Assembly (NCBI GenBank): GCA_017309275.1
Contig: JAFKLT010000073.1
Location: forward strand, 1 to 46,182
DNA from: Sphingomonadales bacterium
Lineage (GTDB): Bacteria > Pseudomonadota > Alphaproteobacteria > Sphingomonadales > Sphingomonadaceae
Direction: 5' to 3'
Length of the DNA: 46,182 nt
The first letter of the stretch is position 1. The number at the start of each line of letters is the position of its first letter. Below the pieces are notes generated by a model that saw nothing but the letters and a program-made list of their open reading frames with translations, had not been told where the DNA came from and ran no database searches. The translations under genes and the position numbers were made by a program. Of the stretch, positions 4,667 through 12,022 are shown in pieces.

Positions 4667-6325
4667 ATGACCCTGCGCCTCACCGTCGCCGCTGCCTCCC
4701 TGCTCTTCGCCGTGCCAGCCGCTGCGCAGGCGAAACCCGATATCAGCGCGGCGAACCTCACCGAAACCGTCCGCACGCTTGCATCCGACCAGTTTCAAGG
4801 CCGTGCGCCCGGCACGATCGGCGAGGAACGCACCATCGGCTATCTGATCGGGCGGCTGCAGGCGCTGGGTCTCGAACCCGCAGGCAAGGACGGCGGCTGG
4901 ACCCAGCCCGTCCCGCTCCTCCACACGCGTCTCGATGCCCCGACGACACTCGCATTCACGCGCAAGGGCGCCGCCACGCCGCTGACCCTCAACACCGACA
5001 TCTATCTCTCGACGCTCCGCCCTGCCGATGCGGCGACCGTCGCCGGGGCACCGCTCGTCTTCGTCGGCTATGGCGTCAGCGCGCCCGAGCGCGGGTGGGA
5101 CGACTTCAAAGGGCAGGATCTGAAAGGCAAGGTCGCCGTCTTCCTGATCAACGACCCCGATTTCGTTGCGACCAAGGGCGAGGACGCGTTCGGCAAGTTC
5201 GGCGGCCGGACCATGACATATTACGGCCGCTGGACCTATAAGTTCGAGGAGGCGTCGCGCCGCGGCGCGATTGCCGCGCTCATCGTGCACGACACCGATG
5301 GCGTCGGCTATGGCTGGAACGTGATCACCAGCCCCCGCGGCGAGAATTACGGCCTCGTCGTCCCGCCCGAGAAGCAGACCAGCCTCGCCTTGCAGGGCTG
5401 GATATCGGGCGAGGCCGCGACGAAGCTGTTCGCCGATGCCGGGCAGGATCTGGCAAAGCTCCGGGTTGCCGCGCGCCGCAAGACGTTCAAACCCGTCGAC
5501 CTGGGCACCACCTTCGATGCGACGATCCCCGTGACGCATCAGGTCGTGCAAAGCCAGAATGTCCTCGCGAAAATTCCCGGCACCACGCGTCCCGAAGAGG
5601 TCGTGATGTATGGCGCGCATTGGGACGCCTATGGCGAAGGCAAGGCGGACGAGAAGGGCCGCATTTATCGCGCAGGCGCCAATGACGACGCGCTCGGCGT
5701 CGCCGGGCTGTTCGAGATCGCACGCAATTTCAAGACGGCACGGCCGCCCGAGCGCACCCTGCTGTTCGGCTTTTGGACCGCCGAAGAGCGCGGCCTCCTC
5801 GGCTCCGAAGCCTATGCCCAAAGCCCGCTGTATCCGGTCGAGAAGACCGTCGCCAACCTCGGGCTCGACATCCTCCAGACCGCCGGCAAGGCCAAGGACG
5901 TCATCCTGGTGGGCAAGGGGCAGGGCTCGCTGGAGGACGATCTTGCGCGCGTGGCGGCGGGCCAGGGTCGCGTCGTGAGCATCGAAAGCCTGCCGGAGCG
6001 CGGCCTGTTCTATCGCGCCGACCATTTCAGCATGGCGAAACGAGGCGTCCCCGTCCTCCTGATGATGGGCATCGCCGGAGCATCCGACCTGGTGAACGGT
6101 GGCAAGGAAGCGGGCCAGAAGTGGGTCGATGACTATACCGGCAAATGCTATCATCAGGCCTGCGACGCCTGGGACGAAAGCTGGAATCTCGACGGCGCGA
6201 TTCAGGATATCGAGCTTTTCTATCAGATCGGCGACGAACTCGCCCGCTCTGCCAAATGGCCCGAGTGGAAGCCCGGCAGCGAGTTCAAGGTCCTCCGCGA
6301 TCAAAGCGCTGCGTCGCGGAAATAA
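4667..6325 (+). CDS. secreted M28-family zinc aminopeptidase with PA domain
   Basis: A 552-residue exported metallopeptidase. A signal peptide covers residues 1-22 (cleavage near AQA/KPD). A protease-associated (PA) insert spans about 125-245, and the M28 catalytic core about 295-535. The co-catalytic zinc ligands are visible as His318/Asp320 (GAHWD), Asp340 or Asp341 (AGANDDALG), Glu373/Glu374 (AEERG), Asp401 (GLDI) and His453 (ADHFSMAK). The family releases N-terminal amino acids from peptides. An AGGAAG ribosome site lies 9 bases upstream of the ATG. With the secreted S9 peptidases and the second M28 enzyme nearby it suggests periplasmic peptide scavenging. It is probably monocistronic: the gap of about 120 bp downstream holds a new promoter. 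Confidence 0.93.
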   Translation: MTLRLTVAAASLLFAVPAAAQAKPDISAANLTETVRTLASDQFQGRAPGTIGEERTIGYLIGRLQALGLEPAGKDGGWTQPVPLLHTRLDAPTTLAFTRKGAATPLTLNTDIYLSTLRPADAATVAGAPLVFVGYGVSAPERGWDDFKGQDLKGKVAVFLINDPDFVATKGEDAFGKFGGRTMTYYGRWTYKFEEASRRGAIAALIVHDTDGVGYGWNVITSPRGENYGLVVPPEKQTSLALQGWISGEAATKLFADAGQDLAKLRVAARRKTFKPVDLGTTFDATIPVTHQVVQSQNVLAKIPGTTRPEEVVMYGAHWDAYGEGKADEKGRIYRAGANDDALGVAGLFEIARNFKTARPPERTLLFGFWTAEERGLLGSEAYAQSPLYPVEKTVANLGLDILQTAGKAKDVILVGKGQGSLEDDLARVAAGQGRVVSIESLPERGLFYRADHFSMAKRGVPVLLMMGIAGASDLVNGGKEAGQKWVDDYTGKCYHQACDAWDESWNLDGAIQDIELFYQIGDELARSAKWPEWKPGSEFKVLRDQSAASRK

Positions 6326-6395
6326 TCGTCGGCGACAGGGCCCGCCGCATCAGACAGTCCGTCCGTCATTGCGGCGTCGCTGACGCCGGCAAGCG

Positions 6396-6411
6396 CCTCT
6401 TGCACAAGAGG
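6396..6411. promoter_or_regulatory. 16-bp inverted repeat abutting the -35 box
   Basis: CCTCTTG-CA-CAAGAGG is a perfect 7-bp dyad ending one base before the TTGACA hexamer of the next promoter. It has no T-tract, so it looks more like a protein-binding site than a terminator for the upstream peptidase gene, although a weak hairpin terminator is possible. Confidence 0.5.
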
Positions 6412-6440
6412 TTGACACTCATTCCTTTGTGTCAGATATT
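6412..6440 (+). promoter_or_regulatory. sigma70-type promoter, probably giving a leaderless mRNA
   Basis: A perfect -35 hexamer TTGACA (6412-6417) is separated by 17 bases from GATATT (6435-6440, 4 of 6 matches to TATAAT). The expected start point, 7 bases past the -10, is position 6447, which is the A of the ATG of the regulator gene. No Shine-Dalgarno sequence precedes that ATG, which agrees with a leaderless transcript. A dyad TGACAC (6413-6418) / GTGTCA (6429-6434) also spans the spacer. Confidence 0.6.
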
Positions 6441-6457
6441 TCTGTCATGACAGAAAT
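6438..6457. promoter_or_regulatory. perfect 20-bp palindrome, probable autoregulatory operator
   Basis: ATTTCTGTCATGACAGAAAT reads identically on both strands. It overlaps the end of the -10 box, the predicted transcription start and the first codons of the GbsR/MarR-type regulator, a position where a bound dimer would block transcription. That the regulator itself binds here is inferred from position and symmetry. Confidence 0.65.
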
Positions 6458-7022
6458 TATCGAATCGCCTTCGAGACTTTCTCCGTCCGCAACGGAATTC
6501 ATCCTTCATTGGGGCAATCTCGGCAGCCAATGGGGCGTCAACCGATCGGTCGCACAGATACATGCGCTGCTATTCATATCCGATCGCGCACTTCATGCGG
6601 AGGAAATCGCTGAAATGCTCGGGCTTGCGCGCTCGAATGTCTCCAATTCGATCAAGGAACTGCTCGGCTGGCGATTGATCGAGCGCGTTCCCATACTCGG
6701 CGACCGCCGGGACCATTTCACCGCCGAGACCGACATATGGGAGATGGTCACGCGCATCGCCGCAGGTCGCAAGGCACGCGAGATCGATCCTGCCGAGGCC
6801 GCGCTCAAGGCCTGCGTCGCGCACGCCGAAAACGACCCGGAACTCAGTGCAGGGGCGAAGGCGCGGCTCGGCGAGATGCTCGATTTCGTTACGGAGATGA
6901 GCCGGTGGCACGACGAGATGTTGCACGTGCCAAAGCCCGCGTTGATGCGGCTGATCAAACTCGGCGCCGGGGTCACGAAGCTGATCAACTGGCGGCCCGG
7001 CAAGGGTAAGGACGTTCGATAG
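6447..7022 (+). CDS. GbsR/MarR-family winged-helix transcriptional regulator
   Basis: A 191-residue regulator. Residues about 15-100 match the GbsR-type winged helix: FILHWGNLGSQWGVNRSVAQIHALLFIS, then a recognition-helix region LHAEEIAEMLGLARSNVSNSIKELLGWRLIERV and a wing with GDRRDHF. The rest is helical and probably dimerises. It is the first gene of an operon: nine bases separate its stop from the DUF4166 gene, and the stop codon merges with that gene's AGGAGG ribosome site. I chose the ATG at 6447 rather than the in-frame GTG at 6429 because the GTG lies inside the promoter spacer, upstream of the predicted start of transcription. The likely role is repressing its own operon through the overlapping palindrome; the inducer is unknown. 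Confidence 0.88.
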   Translation: MTEIIESPSRLSPSATEFILHWGNLGSQWGVNRSVAQIHALLFISDRALHAEEIAEMLGLARSNVSNSIKELLGWRLIERVPILGDRRDHFTAETDIWEMVTRIAAGRKAREIDPAEAALKACVAHAENDPELSAGAKARLGEMLDFVTEMSRWHDEMLHVPKPALMRLIKLGAGVTKLINWRPGKGKDVR

Positions 7023-7031
7023 GAGGCCGCT

Positions 7032-7700
7032 ATGCGGAGCGAGAGGACGTGCCAATTCGAAGCGCCTGCTCCTGCCTTGTCGGACGATGACGCCGCGTTC
7101 CACGACCATCGCTTTCGCCGCCTGATACCCGCCGACGATTGGGCCGCGCTTCCCGGCGACGTCCGCCGCCGTTTCTCCAAACATCTGTCCGGCCAACGGG
7201 TCGCAACCTACAGCGGAGAGATCGTCTGGACGCGCCTTTCCCGCATGGGCCGACTGCTCGCGCAGATATGCAGGCTTATCGGCGCACCGCTGCCGACGAA
7301 CGCCGGCGGCCCCGCACCCGCTGCCGTCGTGGTCAGCGAAGACAGGGTTTGCGGCGGACAGATATGGACGCGCATCTACGGCCGCGCGAAAGGGTATCCG
7401 CAGGTCATTCACAGCGCCAAGCGCTTTGCCGGAAGCACCGGGCTCGAGGAACATATCGGGGGAGGCTTCGGCACGGCGCTCACGGTGCGTGCCGAGGCCG
7501 ATGCGCTGATTTTCATCTCCGATCATTATTTCTGGCAAGGCCCGCACCTGCGCCTTCGCCTGCCCCGCTGGCTGGCTCCGGGCAGAACCGTCGTGACGCA
7601 TCAGCACCTCGGCGATCGCCGCTTTGCCTTCGACCTCAAGGTCACGCACCCGCTCTTCGGCGAAATATTGAACCAGCATGGCCTGTTCCGCGATGCCTGA
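7032..7700 (+). CDS. free-standing DUF4166 domain protein
   Basis: A 222-residue protein that is essentially one DUF4166 domain. It shares a run of features with the C-terminal part of the protein encoded at 8091-9776 from the same operon: LP..VR, a SG...V.R..G.LA.I...IG.P block, a W.R...K.F block, and a final LPRWLAPG ... Q..DRRFAFDLKV.HPL.G.I...G block. There is no signal peptide or clear membrane helix. DUF4166 is usually found fused behind saccharopine-dehydrogenase-like domains and has no known biochemical role. A strong ribosome site (AGGAGG, 5-base spacing) precedes the ATG. The last 8 bp overlap the next gene, so translation is probably coupled. Confidence 0.85.
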   Translation: MRSERTCQFEAPAPALSDDDAAFHDHRFRRLIPADDWAALPGDVRRRFSKHLSGQRVATYSGEIVWTRLSRMGRLLAQICRLIGAPLPTNAGGPAPAAVVVSEDRVCGGQIWTRIYGRAKGYPQVIHSAKRFAGSTGLEEHIGGGFGTALTVRAEADALIFISDHYFWQGPHLRLRLPRWLAPGRTVVTHQHLGDRRFAFDLKVTHPLFGEILNQHGLFRDA

Positions 7701-8094
7701 CGGTCCGGTCATCCTGTTCGACGCCGAATGCATACTCTGCTCGGCGAATGCCGGATTCGTGCTGAAACATGACAGGGCCGACTATTTCCTGCTCGCGTCG
7801 ATCCAGGGAGAGTCGGGGGCGACTCTCGCCCTTCGCCACGACCTCGATCCGCACGATCCGACCAGCCTGCTGGTCGTCGACGGGACGACGGTCCGCCGCG
7901 ACAGCGACGCCGTTCTCTTCATCTATGAAAAGCTCGGATGGCCGTGGCGGCTCGCCGGCTTGCTGCGCATCGTGCCATCCTTTCTGCGCGATCCGGCCTA
8001 TCGCTGGGTGGCGCGCAATCGCTATCGCCTGTTCGGCAAACGATCGACCTGCTGGATCGCGCCGCCCGAGTATCGCAGCAGGATTCTTCCATGA
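7693..8094 (+). CDS. DCC-family (DUF393) thiol-disulfide oxidoreductase-like protein
   Basis: A 133-residue protein with the family's defining start: a short beta strand (VILFDAECILCSAN) that places Asp10, Cys13 and Cys16 as DxxCxxC. It continues with the conserved SLLVVDG..V...SDAVLFIYEKLG..W, LLR.VP..LRD..Y.WVARNRYR.FGK segments. DCC proteins are predicted thioredoxin-fold oxidoreductases, but the substrate of almost none is known. I chose ATG 7693, which overlaps the DUF4166 stop, over an ATG 15 bases upstream. The 3' end overlaps the following gene in an ATGA junction (8091-8094). Embedded between the two DUF4166 genes, it probably works in the same pathway. Confidence 0.88.
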   Translation: MPDGPVILFDAECILCSANAGFVLKHDRADYFLLASIQGESGATLALRHDLDPHDPTSLLVVDGTTVRRDSDAVLFIYEKLGWPWRLAGLLRIVPSFLRDPAYRWVARNRYRLFGKRSTCWIAPPEYRSRILP

Positions 8095-9776
8095 GCGAGC
8101 AGTCCAACCCCATGAAGATATTGATCCTCGGCGGCTATGGCGTGTTCGGCGGCCGCCTTGCCGAACTCCTCTCCGACCGCCCCGACCTCGAGCTTCTCAT
8201 TTGCGGTCGCGACCGCCAGCGCGCCGAAGCCTTCTGCGCCGCCTGGCGCGGTGCCGCGCAGGTGTCGCCTGTCGCGCTCGACCGCCGCGCCATCGCCGAC
8301 GGCATCGCAGCGCATCAGCCCCACCTCGTCGTCGATGCCTCCGGTCCGTTCCAGGATTATGGCGCCGACCGCTATCGGGTGATCGAGGCCTGTATCGCGG
8401 CCAGGGTAGATTATCTCGACTTCGCCGACGCCGCCGATTTCGTGTTCGGCGTGGATGCGTTCGACGCGGATGCGAAAGCCGCGAACATCTTCGTCATCTC
8501 GGGCGTCAGCAGCTTTCCCGCACTGACCGCCGCGGTCTTGCGCGAAATGGCGACATCGATGGACATTCGCACGGTCGAGGGCGGGATAGCGCCGTCGCCC
8601 TTCGCCGGGATCGGCCTCAACGTGATGCGGGCGGTCGTCGGCTATGCCGGCGCGCCGGTGAAGCTGCGCCGCGGCGGCAAGGACGGCTTTGGCACCGGCC
8701 TTGCCGAGAGCCGGCGCTTCACCGTCGCGGTGCCCGGTCGCCTGCCGCTGCGCAGCATCCACTTCTCGCTCGTCGACGTCCCCGACCTGCAGGTGATTCC
8801 GCCGACCTATCCGGAACTCACCGATATCTGGATGGGCGCCGGCCCGGTGCCGGAAATCCTGCACCGCATCCTGAATCTGCTCGCAAGGGCCCGCGCGACC
8901 TTTCGCCTGCCCTCGCTCGAACCCTTCTCGCGTCTCTTTTACACCGTCCTCAACTGGATGAAGTTCGGCGAGCATCGCGGCGGCATGTATATTCGCGTGC
9001 ACGGGGTCGCGGAGGGCGCGCATGTCGAACGAAGCTGGCATTTGCTCGCCGAGGGCGACGACGGCCCTTACATTCCGTCGATGGCGGTCGAGGGAATCGT
9101 CAGAAAGCTGCTGGCCGGCGAACGGCCGCGCCCCGGCGCACGGTCGGCGACCGAGGCGCTGACCCTGAAGGATTATGACGCGCTCTTCGCAAATCGCTCG
9201 ATCCACACCGGCTTTCGCGAGGAGCGCCCGAACGCGCTGCTGTATGAAAGGATATTGGGATCGGCATTCGATCGCCTGCCTCCACGCGTTCGGGAATTGC
9301 ACGGCAGCGCTGACGATCGCCGATGGAGCGGGCAGGCGACCGTTACGCGCGGACGCGGGCTGCTTGCGCGCATCGCCGCCGCGATCGTCGGCTTTCCAAA
9401 GGCGGCCGATTCGACCCCCGTCACCGTCACCTTCACCCGCGAAGAGGGGGCGGAGCGCTGGACGCGGAACTTCGACGGCAAGCGCTTTTCGTCACTCCAA
9501 TATGCCGGCACCGGTCGCAGCGACCGGCTGCTCGTCGAACGCTTCGGTCCCGCCGCCTTCGCGATGGCCCTCGTCGTCGAGGACGGGCGCCTTCGTCTCG
9601 TACCGCGACGCTGGACGCTGTTCGCCATTCCGATGCCGCGCTTTCTGATGCCCGACGGCGCGAGCTTCGAAGCGGACGTCGACGGCAAATTTCATTTCAA
9701 CGTCGAGATTGCGGCCCCGGTAATCGGGCTGATCGTCGCCTATCGCGGCATCCTGGAACCTGAAAACACCGCCTGA
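8091..9776 (+). CDS. saccharopine dehydrogenase-like NAD(P)-binding protein fused to DUF4166
   Basis: A 561-residue two-domain protein. Residues about 8-140 form a Rossmann fold with the dinucleotide motif GGYGVFGG (14-21), CGRD after the second strand, and VVDASGPFQDYG, as in saccharopine dehydrogenase-like and trans-acting enoyl-reductase proteins. Residues 150-370 form the middle domain of that family (VSSFPALTAAVL, GGIAPSPFAGIGLNVMRA). Residues about 385-553 are a DUF4166 domain homologous to the separate protein at 7032-7700. There is no transmembrane segment in the Rossmann part. ATG 8091 overlaps the previous stop (ATGA); ATG 8112 is a possible internal alternative. The likely role is an NAD(P)H-dependent reduction of an unknown, possibly lipid-like, substrate; the substrate is a guess. 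It is the last gene of the operon. Confidence 0.88.
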   Translation: MSEQSNPMKILILGGYGVFGGRLAELLSDRPDLELLICGRDRQRAEAFCAAWRGAAQVSPVALDRRAIADGIAAHQPHLVVDASGPFQDYGADRYRVIEACIAARVDYLDFADAADFVFGVDAFDADAKAANIFVISGVSSFPALTAAVLREMATSMDIRTVEGGIAPSPFAGIGLNVMRAVVGYAGAPVKLRRGGKDGFGTGLAESRRFTVAVPGRLPLRSIHFSLVDVPDLQVIPPTYPELTDIWMGAGPVPEILHRILNLLARARATFRLPSLEPFSRLFYTVLNWMKFGEHRGGMYIRVHGVAEGAHVERSWHLLAEGDDGPYIPSMAVEGIVRKLLAGERPRPGARSATEALTLKDYDALFANRSIHTGFREERPNALLYERILGSAFDRLPPRVRELHGSADDRRWSGQATVTRGRGLLARIAAAIVGFPKAADSTPVTVTFTREEGAERWTRNFDGKRFSSLQYAGTGRSDRLLVERFGPAAFAMALVVEDGRLRLVPRRWTLFAIPMPRFLMPDGASFEADVDGKFHFNVEIAAPVIGLIVAYRGILEPENTA

Positions 9777-9865
9777 CGCCGGTCAAATCCGCTTGCCCGA
9801 TCCTTTTGCATCCTTACATTGGAGCGCACGAATATTTCTCCCCGGACGATGAGGATCGCCTTGCC

Positions 9866-12022
9866 ATGCCCCGTAAGAATTTCCGCGCGCCGCTCGCGCT
9901 GGTCGCGCTGATGATGACGCCCGCCGCCGCACAGGCCGCCGATGCCGCTTCCGCTCCGTCGCCGGCGCTTACCTATCCCGCGACCGAGCGCGGCAACACC
10001 GTCGACCCGCAGTTCGGCGTCGATGTCGCCGACCCCTATCGCTGGCTCGAAGACGATGTCCGCGTCAATCCGAAGGTCGCGGCCTGGGTCGCCGACCAGA
10101 ACAAGATCACCGACGCCTATCTCGCCACCCTCCCGGGCCGCGAGACGTTCAAGAAGCGGATGACCGAGCTCTATAACTACGAACGCTTCGGCCTGCCCAC
10201 CAAGGCCGGGCCCCGCTACTTCTATACGCGCAACGACGGGCTTCAGGCCCAGTCGGTGCTTTATGTCCGCGAGGGGCTGAAGGGCGAGGGACGCGTCCTG
10301 ATCGACCCGAACGCATGGGCCAAGGACGGCGCGACCGCGCTCGGCGAATGGAAGCCGTCGGAGGATGGCAAATTTCTGCTCTATTCGGTGCAGGACGGTG
10401 GCACCGACTGGCGTATCGTGCGCGTAAAGGACGTCGCGACCGGCCAGGACACGAGCGACGAGATCCGCTGGGTCAAATTCTCGGCGCTTGCCTGGGCGAA
10501 GGACGGCAGCGGCTTTTTCTATTCGCGCTTTCCGGAACCGAAGGAAGGCCAGGCCTTTCAGTCGCTCAACGAAAATCACGCCGTCTATTTCCATAAGCTC
10601 GGCACGCCGCAGAGCGCCGACATTCTGGTCCATGCAACGCCCGACAAGCCAAAGCTCAACAACAGCGCGGTCGTCACCGATGACGGCAAATATCTGCTCG
10701 TCGTCGGTTCCGAAGGCACCGACGAGCGCTATGGGCTGACGCTCTATCCGATCACCGCAAACGGCGTGGGCAAGCCGGTGACGCTGGTCGGCGATTTCGC
10801 GAACAACTGGGAATATGTGACCAACGAGGGCACGCGTTTCACCTTCGTCACCAACAAGGGCGCGCCGCGCCAGCGAATGGTGTCGATGGATATCAAAAAG
10901 CCCGCGACGCTGACGCAGCTCGTCGGCGAACAGGAGGCGACGCTGGTCGGCGCGTCGCGCGTCGGCAATCGCATCATCCTCTCCTACCTTGGCGACGCAA
11001 AGTCGGAGGCGCGCATGGTGGCGCTCGACGGCAAACCCGTCGCGAACATCAAGCTTGCCGACATCGGCTCGGCGTCGGGCTTCGGCGGCAAGTCGAGCGA
11101 TCCCGAAACCTTCTATGCCTTCTCCAGCTTTGCGCGGCCGACGACGATCTATCGCCTCGACACCGCGACCGGAAAGAGCGAGATTTTCGCGGAGCCCAAG
11201 CTGACCTTCAAACCCGACGAGTTCACGGTCGAACAGCGTTTCTTCAAATCGAAGGACGGCACCGAAGTGCCGATGTTCCTGGTGATGAAAAAGGGCATCG
11301 ACCGCAGCAAGGGCTCGCCGACGCTGCTCTATGGCTACGGCGGCTTCAACGTCTCGATGACCCCCGCCTTTTCGCCGACGCGCCTCGCATGGGTCGACAA
11401 GGGGGGCGTGCTCGCCATCGCCAATCTTCGTGGCGGCGGCGAATATGGCAAGGCGTGGCACGATGCCGGCCGGCTCGACAAGAAGCAGAATGTCTTCGAC
11501 GACTTCATCGGCGCGGGGGAATATCTGATCGCGCAGGGCATCACCGGAAAGGGCCAGCTCGCGATCGAGGGCGGGTCGAACGGCGGCCTGCTCGTCGGCG
11601 CGGTTACCAACCAGCGCCCCGACCTGTTCGCTGCAGCGCTCCCGGCGGTCGGCGTGATGGACATGCTGCGCTTCGACCGCTTCACCGCAGGACGCTATTG
11701 GGTCGACGACTATGGCTATCCGTCGAAGGAAGCCGACTTCCGGAACCTGCTCGCCTATTCGCCCTATCATAATATCAAGAGCGGCCGGGCCTATCCGGCG
11801 GTGCTGGTAACGACGGCCGACACCGACGACCGCGTCGTGCCGGGCCACAGCTTCAAATATACCGCCGAACTGCAGCACGCCGACGTCGGCAACAAGCCTC
11901 ACCTGATCCGCATCGAAACGCGCGCGGGTCACGGGTCGGGCAAGCCGACCGACAAGGTCATCGCCGAAGCGGCCGACAAATATGCCTTTGCGGCAAAATG
12001 GACCGGACTGAGCGTCGAATAG
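9866..12022 (+). CDS. secreted prolyl oligopeptidase (S9A)
   Basis: A 718-residue serine endopeptidase cleaving after proline in short peptides. A signal peptide occupies residues 1-24 (MPRKNFRAPLALVALMMTPA, ending AQA), so it is exported. The N-terminal segment contains the family signature DPYRWLEDD, followed by a seven-bladed propeller and the catalytic hydrolase domain. The catalytic residues are Ser571 (EGGSNGG), an Asp within TADTDDRV (652-656) and His689 (RAGHGSGK); GYGGF and the LRGGGEYG block are also present. ATG 9866 is chosen because GAGGAT lies 9 bases upstream and it gives a clean signal peptide; an in-frame ATG 60 bases upstream would bury the signal. The last 25 bp overlap the next gene. 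Confidence 0.95.
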   Translation: MPRKNFRAPLALVALMMTPAAAQAADAASAPSPALTYPATERGNTVDPQFGVDVADPYRWLEDDVRVNPKVAAWVADQNKITDAYLATLPGRETFKKRMTELYNYERFGLPTKAGPRYFYTRNDGLQAQSVLYVREGLKGEGRVLIDPNAWAKDGATALGEWKPSEDGKFLLYSVQDGGTDWRIVRVKDVATGQDTSDEIRWVKFSALAWAKDGSGFFYSRFPEPKEGQAFQSLNENHAVYFHKLGTPQSADILVHATPDKPKLNNSAVVTDDGKYLLVVGSEGTDERYGLTLYPITANGVGKPVTLVGDFANNWEYVTNEGTRFTFVTNKGAPRQRMVSMDIKKPATLTQLVGEQEATLVGASRVGNRIILSYLGDAKSEARMVALDGKPVANIKLADIGSASGFGGKSSDPETFYAFSSFARPTTIYRLDTATGKSEIFAEPKLTFKPDEFTVEQRFFKSKDGTEVPMFLVMKKGIDRSKGSPTLLYGYGGFNVSMTPAFSPTRLAWVDKGGVLAIANLRGGGEYGKAWHDAGRLDKKQNVFDDFIGAGEYLIAQGITGKGQLAIEGGSNGGLLVGAVTNQRPDLFAAALPAVGVMDMLRFDRFTAGRYWVDDYGYPSKEADFRNLLAYSPYHNIKSGRAYPAVLVTTADTDDRVVPGHSFKYTAELQHADVGNKPHLIRIETRAGHGSGKPTDKVIAEAADKYAFAAKWTGLSVE

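Follow-up and report, generated by a model that had tools for sequence, protein, structure and literature searches.

This locus raises the question of whether four adjacent genes of a Sphingomonadales bacterium form one system, and on what kind of compound that system would act. The genes lie in a stretch of 46,182 nucleotides (contig JAFKLT010000073.1 of assembly GCA_017309275.1; the window) and encode a GbsR/MarR-type regulator, a free DUF4166 protein, a DCC-type thiol protein, and a saccharopine-dehydrogenase-like (SDH) enzyme that is fused to a second DUF4166 domain. An earlier note on this DNA had described them as a self-contained operon behind a dedicated regulator and had suggested a redox pathway on a perhaps lipid-like substrate. 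The operon itself was confirmed, and the interpretation was partly supported. We tentatively read the locus as an inducible operon in which two older modules have been joined and in which a lipophilic compound held by a barrel protein may be reduced by an NADP(H) enzyme. Support for the gene structure and for the switch is good, and the two-module pattern is seen in the sequence itself; we infer the chemistry, the substrate and the inducer. The features of the operon are the following.

6412–6440, plus strand: putative sigma-70-type promoter (TTGACA at 6412–6417, 17-base-pair (bp) spacer, GATATT at 6435–6440)
6438–6457, strandless: putative operator, a perfect 20-bp palindrome, ATTTCTGTCATGACAGAAAT
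6447–7022, plus strand: GbsR/MarR-type regulator, 191 amino acids, with a MarR_2 (PF12802) match
7032–7700, plus strand: free DUF4166 protein, 222 amino acids, of the regulator-linked clade
7693–8094, plus strand: DCC thiol-disulfide-oxidoreductase-like protein, 133 amino acids, motif DAECILC
8091–9776, plus strand: SDH-DUF4166 fusion, 561 amino acids, its DUF4166 part in the DCC-linked clade
8112–9230, plus strand: saccharopine-dehydrogenase-like NADP(H) domain of the fusion, residues about 8–380
9276–9761, plus strand: C-terminal DUF4166 domain of the fusion, residues about 396–557

All four genes belong to the families that had been named for them, with Pfam scores above the cut-offs. The regulator matched MarR_2 with 45 bits (cut-off 27), the free and fused DUF4166 domains matched PF13761 with 117.7 and 111.3 bits (gathering cut-off 23), the DCC protein, which has the DxxCxxC motif, matched DCC1-like (PF04134) with 92.9 bits (cut-off 27.8), and the fusion matched Sacchrp_dh_NADP (PF03435) with 41.1 bits (cut-off 25.1). 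The spacing was exactly as described: a 9-bp gap between the regulator and DUF4166 (7023–7031), an 8-bp overlap of DUF4166 and DCC (7693–7700), and a 4-bp overlap of DCC and the fusion (8091–8094). The overlap sizes recur in relatives. Free DUF4166 and SDH genes overlap by 8 nucleotides (nt) in 22 of 30 cases, free DUF4166 and DCC genes by 8 nt in 8 of 18, DCC and fusion genes by 4 nt in 17 of 27, and genes for a DUF2269-type membrane protein and DUF4166 by 4 nt in 14 of 14, in counts that use the start nearest to a 4-nt overlap and therefore favour 4 nt. The gap between the regulator and DUF4166 is variable among loci. Within the reach of the searches, the genome (5.1 Mb, 121 contigs) contains DUF4166 at these two places only, one DCC match, which is the DCC gene of the operon, and one operator core, and in this sense the operon is self-contained.

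The promoter-like site matches the consensus at 10 of 12 positions, and its hexamers alone are unremarkable (2 promoter-like sites in 6200–9950 vs 0.7 expected). The palindrome overlaps the −10 box and takes in the regulator's ATG (6447), 7 nt past that box. When up to 3 mismatches were allowed, its 18-bp core was found once in the 5.1-Mb genome (control, 0 matches) and the operator pattern once in the window vs 0.01 expected, with a match in 1 of 100 shuffles. When no more than 2 mismatches were allowed, ATTTCTGT-N4-ACAGAAAT was found at the regulator in 47 of the 48 loci in which a regulator is within 2.5 kb of DUF4166, a site being counted if it was inside the regulator gene or within 150 bp of it. 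The figure of 47 of 48 was unchanged when only sites on the regulator's start side were counted, and a control with reversed halves gave 0 matches in 1,912,094 bases. Additionally, 40 of the 47 operator-bearing loci have TTGAC 26 nt ahead of the operator. The first in-frame start codon is within the palindrome in 41 of these 47 loci and further downstream in 6, and because its position varies in this way the palindrome appears to be conserved for binding and not for coding. The regulator mRNA is probably leaderless and would start at or beside the ATG, since this codon sits in the palindrome so close to the −10 box. The conserved operator, its single genomic site and the recurring overlaps bear out the description of a compact operon under its own regulator; only the start assigned to it, 6396, was misplaced, as it lies upstream of the promoter. 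A short inverted repeat (CCTCTTG/CAAGAGG, 6396–6411), not flagged as a terminator, is found directly before the −35 box.

A plasmid of Methylobacterium oryzae, which is outside the order and played no part in the definition of the motif, carries a MarR-DUF4166-SDH arrangement with an identical 20-base operator at the same spacing. In the DUF4166 loci, only 3 further operator sites were found, each where no regulator had been called. Two of these (8698 in locus L049 and 7713 in L071) are roughly 170–240 bp ahead of a DUF4166 domain with no adjacent regulator, and the genomes in question (G244 and G230) have a regulator of the same kind at another site (L215 and L213, respectively); control of these DUF4166 genes in trans is possible. 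The third (L167) has 2 mismatches and is away from DUF4166. In locus L056 the operator upstream of the regulator is extended to a perfect 42-bp palindrome with 21-nt arms and no spacer.

That the four genes make up one conserved system was not supported. DUF4166 is patchy, occurring in 62 of 396 genomes of the order, in 7 of 19 sampled from the window's own genus, and in 50 of 398 genomes of a phylum sample that overlaps the order sample; two genomes (G093, G106) with partial DUF4166 matches were dropped before the counts, and a Bacillus subtilis DUF4166 gene served as the control match in the search. No relative of the free DUF4166 protein was found in viral contigs. Neighbourhoods were compared in 120 loci (the window and 119 others), all chosen for DUF4166 and not independent of each other, as there are near copies (L064/L065, L136/L137, L154/L179) and six loci come from one genus (family f14). 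Genes of relatives were open reading frames (ORFs) forced by hidden Markov models (HMMs), an approach that missed at least one DCC gene (L147, seen by eye), and the TIGR01777-type and SDR-DoxX partners were classed by HMM or by sequence cluster, three of the loci (L058, L073 and L077) also by a Pfam scan. On the same strand within 3 kb of DUF4166, SDH was found in 75 loci, the regulator in 49 and DCC in 44; 15 loci had the DUF2269-type membrane protein, 13 a membrane TIGR01777-type reductase and 3 an SDR-DoxX type, and at least one Rossmann partner was present in 91. No same-strand DCC ORF was found by HMM within 3 kb in 76 of the 120 loci, one of which had DCC on the other strand.

A tree of 131 DUF4166 domains, which leaves out 3 of 134 ORFs with short domain matches, has one split (support 100/100) into two sides. 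The first side contains all 40 fused domains and all 14 free DCC-linked domains without a nearby regulator or DUF2269, together with 6 others, 3 DUF2269-linked domains and 1 regulator-linked domain. The second contains 47 of 48 regulator-linked free domains, 13 DUF2269-linked domains, 7 others and no fused domain. The operon of the window has one DUF4166 from each side. Furthermore, five genomes (G534, G641, G750, G764, G766) have the regulator-linked free DUF4166 and the SDH-DUF4166 fusion at separate sites, with DCC alongside the fusion in four of the five. The regulator, DCC and fusion are joined in eight loci and the regulator and fusion in four more; the Methylobacterium plasmid is a further regulator-joined case. 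DCC thus accompanies the fusion, and the free DUF4166 is paired with the regulator. For the half made up of regulator and free DUF4166, DUF4166 and DCC are unlinked in relatives, an outcome that the earlier note had named as a refutation of its proposal. Six loci contain DCC-DUF4166 pairs without a called reductase (L144, L155, L164, L165, L169, L174), and in L155, L164, L165 and L169 these pairs are near genes read by eye as dnaG and rpoD.

The operon of the window is found between two peptidase genes:

4667–6325: peptidase M28 gene, the upstream neighbour
from 9866: prolyl oligopeptidase gene, the downstream neighbour

In several loci beside an S9 peptidase gene (cluster c15), the slot that follows the regulator and free DUF4166 varies. 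It holds SDH alone (L056, L069), DCC and the fusion (the window, L033, L067), or a TIGR01777-type reductase (L058). Because this slot holds different reductases, the reductase looks exchangeable, with the regulator and free DUF4166 as the constant part. Overall, DUF4166 has three different Rossmann reductases as neighbours, which hints that the substrate of a DUF4166 system may be set by the barrel and not by the enzyme. In L073, a gene near DUF4166 (8863–10725, minus strand) encodes a membrane reductase of the TIGR01777 type (Epimerase-DUF1731) that is fused at its C-terminus to a DCC domain.

The operator is also found away from DUF4166. With up to 1 mismatch, sites were present in 110 of 396 genomes of the order, and 52 of 76 DUF4166-bearing genomes have the operator. 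We read 30 sites outside DUF4166 loci, hand-picked from the matches listed, and in 25 of these the fetched stretch contained a regulator match, one of them a fragment (L217). Eighteen of the 24 extra-site regulators placed in a tree are near a membrane protein of about 120–140 amino acids ("m125"; L210, L212–L214, L216, L223, L224, L226, L227, L229–L232, L235–L239), for which no Pfam or NCBIfam match was found at E 0.01. The m125-linked regulators are GbsR-type paralogues, and their genes often have a second operator about 640 nt away, at the opposite gene end. Other extra-site regulators adjoin paired small membrane proteins, in L220 also a DCC-like gene (by eye), or proteins of 330–344 amino acids with an N-terminal membrane part (L233, 3412–4410; L234, 5705–6736; L225, 5113–6108). 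The C-terminal part of the L233 protein matches Polyketide_cyc2 (SRPBCC, lipid transport) above the cut-off, that of L225 is just below it, and L234 has no match. In L211 a perfect operator (6010–6029; G019:C2:204509–204528) precedes a fatty acid desaturase-like gene by 21 bp; although this was seen only once, it hints at a regulon for lipids. This operator is divergent from a YhhN-family gene, which we did not count towards the regulon; both in L211 and in L235 the YhhN gene is placed between a gyrA gene (read by eye) and the operator and may therefore be a mere syntenic neighbour. In a tree of 73 regulators (midpoint root; main split 93/86, a modest value; the 71-residue fragment L217 dropped), 47 of 49 DUF4166-linked regulators group together with 2 others, and the m125-linked regulators are opposite.

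On our tentative reading, the operon would work as follows. Module A would consist of a GbsR-family repressor and the free DUF4166 barrel protein, and module B of the DCC thioredoxin-like thiol protein and the saccharopine-reductase-like NADP(H) enzyme fused to a distantly related second DUF4166 barrel. That the operator overlaps both the −10 box and the ATG suggests that a repressor dimer on the palindrome would block RNA polymerase and thereby repress the operon and the regulator itself, until a small effector freed the repressor. The DUF4166 barrels may bind a lipophilic small molecule; the fused barrel would offer it to the NADPH domain, where an imine, carbonyl or enone could be reduced, and the DCC protein may supply or guard thiol redox chemistry. 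As a net result, a lipophilic compound, perhaps one that stems from the membrane, would upon induction be cleared or remodelled by reduction. The redox theme of the earlier note is borne out by the NADP(H)-type Rossmann domain, in which G14, G17, G20 and R40 are invariant in 76 of 76 SDH segments, and by the DxxCxxC motif, which is kept in 44 of 45 DCC ORFs, the exception being a fragment of 77 amino acids. The guess of a lipid-like substrate gains slight support from the predicted fold of the free DUF4166 protein, a ten-stranded beta-barrel with a helical lid that is similar to fatty-acid-binding proteins (FABPs) and nitrobindins.

Several observations weigh against the reduction of a barrel-held lipophilic compound, or at least qualify it. 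The match of the predicted DUF4166 barrel is weak (identity about 5–12 percent), and the closest solved relatives of the SDH enzyme act on amines. DUF4166 was found with DCC only in 12 of the 120 loci, with the regulator only in 8 and with no listed partner in 9. The reversed-pattern control gave sites in at least 11 of 396 genomes of the order among the matches listed and in 2 of the 76 DUF4166-bearing genomes. Five of the 30 extra operator sites had no regulator in the fetched stretch (L211, L218, L219, L222, L228), and those in L218 and L222 look like chance sites within coding genes. Finally, the DUF4166-linked regulators of L088 and L147 are on the opposite side of the regulator tree.

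The amine-directed relatives raise a different reading, rather unlikely in our estimate, in which the enzyme is a polyamine- or lysine-type amine/imine reductase and the role of the DUF4166 barrels is one of structure or regulation. The PF03435 domain fits this, as do the strongest fold matches of the SDH model, to carboxyspermidine dehydrogenases and saccharopine/lysine dehydrogenases, but the identity in the seven best is only 13–17 percent, and TIGR01777-type and SDR-DoxX enzymes, which belong to different families, also occur near DUF4166. No NCBIfam model matched the fusion above its cut-off in a library whose coverage of saccharopine/carboxyspermidine dehydrogenases is unchecked; the weak matches were to precorrin-6A reductase and an ArgC-type model (E up to 0.1). 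No polyamine gene was named among the neighbours read or scanned, although no dedicated search was made. Singlet-oxygen regulons contain DCC, TIGR01777 and photolyase genes, and an operon for oxidative stress or light damage, in which the DCC and NADPH enzymes restore membrane components after oxidation, would fit the conserved thiol motif, the TIGR01777-type and DCC partners and the direct reductase-DCC fusion. We hold this to be quite unlikely, as the regulator is of the GbsR type and not ChrR or LitR, and no photolyase, DUF1365 or cyclopropane synthase gene was noticed in the neighbours read, these families not having been searched for.

The fold of DUF4166 bears on whether the barrels carry haem or nitric oxide, with the operon handling a haem-derived compound. 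Nitrobindins and the nitrobindin-like Rv0813 and Rv2717c are among the top matches of the predicted models, but polyketide spirocyclases match equally and FABP-type proteins are within about 1–2 Z units; the low identity of the barrel matches applies here too, and there is no histidine among the columns in which one residue exceeds 55 percent (131 domains). This makes haem an improbable ligand. The regulator, in turn, could point to an osmolyte system that senses choline or betaine for osmoprotection, as its best solved relative is 1ku9/Mj223 (E 1.2e-8, residues 22–104), the template for GbsR models (PMC6207618), and as it weakly matches the CudC choline regulator model (NF047500). We did not make this our first choice, and consider it very improbable, because the score of 41.3 bits is far below the cut-off of 218. 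The operon has no genes for choline oxidation or Opu transport, and non-osmostress GbsR relatives are described as answering other effectors, such as sulfate for CydE (PMC6207618, PMC6096048).

An extension of the lipophilic-compound reading, which we regard as doubtful, is that DUF4166 proteins form an uncharacterised bacterial family of FABP-like carriers, which pass a lipophilic substrate straight to an NAD(P)H reductase, either fused to them or separate, while DCC acts as the thiol partner, as one branch of a GbsR-type membrane-lipid quality-control circuit. If true, this would define a Sphingomonadales regulon on the operator motif, whose other branches would be small membrane proteins, transmembrane-SRPBCC proteins and, in one genome, a desaturase. 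No paper naming DUF4166, PF13761, IPR025311 or pfam13761 was found in a literature search, and a broader search of titles and abstract openings gave nothing on these genes. To our knowledge, DCC proteins have no settled role. The conserved operator offers a direct handle on when the system is on, and hence on what its substrate may be, and the barrel-reductase fusion gives a concrete biochemical hypothesis of ligand binding followed by NADPH oxidation.

The DCC protein shares PF04134 and DxxCxxC with the DCC (DUF393, YuxK-like) family. Its link to DUF4166 was seen in loci chosen for DUF4166 and carries no information on DCC genes elsewhere; in the part of PMC4602095 seen, YuxK is only an entry in a tabulation of predicted structures. 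Among named relatives, the nearest one found is a Sphingopyxis metagenome-assembled genome, with 82 percent identity for the fusion protein. The fold shared by carboxyspermidine dehydrogenase, saccharopine reductase and lysine-6-dehydrogenase has no counterpart to the C-terminal DUF4166 barrel of the fusion, because the alignments stop near residue 378. As in the barrels of FABPs, nitrobindins and the spirocyclases OssO/OlmO, both predicted DUF4166 models show ten main strands and a lid helix placed between strands one and two; a FABP/lipocalin-like (calycin) fold is a candidate for DUF4166.

The closest parallel to the switch is the GbsR family (GbsR, OpcR, OpuAR, CydE), whose members are likewise Mj223-type winged-helix regulators of the MarR type, although the regulator of the window is not the CudC choline equivalog. 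In Bacillus, the GbsR operator lies past the transcription start, on its downstream side, and consists of AT-rich inverted half-sites 4 bp apart (PMC7396694); the putative operator of the window has the same 4-bp spacing and is also an AT-rich inverted repeat near the promoter, as in the GbsR family (PMC7396694, PMC6096048). The gene of the GbsR-type repressor CydE shares a transcript with the genes that it controls, and two sites of CydE have been footprinted (PMC6096048). The first, TATTTCAGAAATTTCTGAAAGTTCA, has the same outer form as the operator of the window (11 of 16 positions), whereas the second does not fit the motif, which tempers the likeness. The system differs from the GbsR family in its target genes and in an operator that, in most loci, lies over the −10 box and the start codon.

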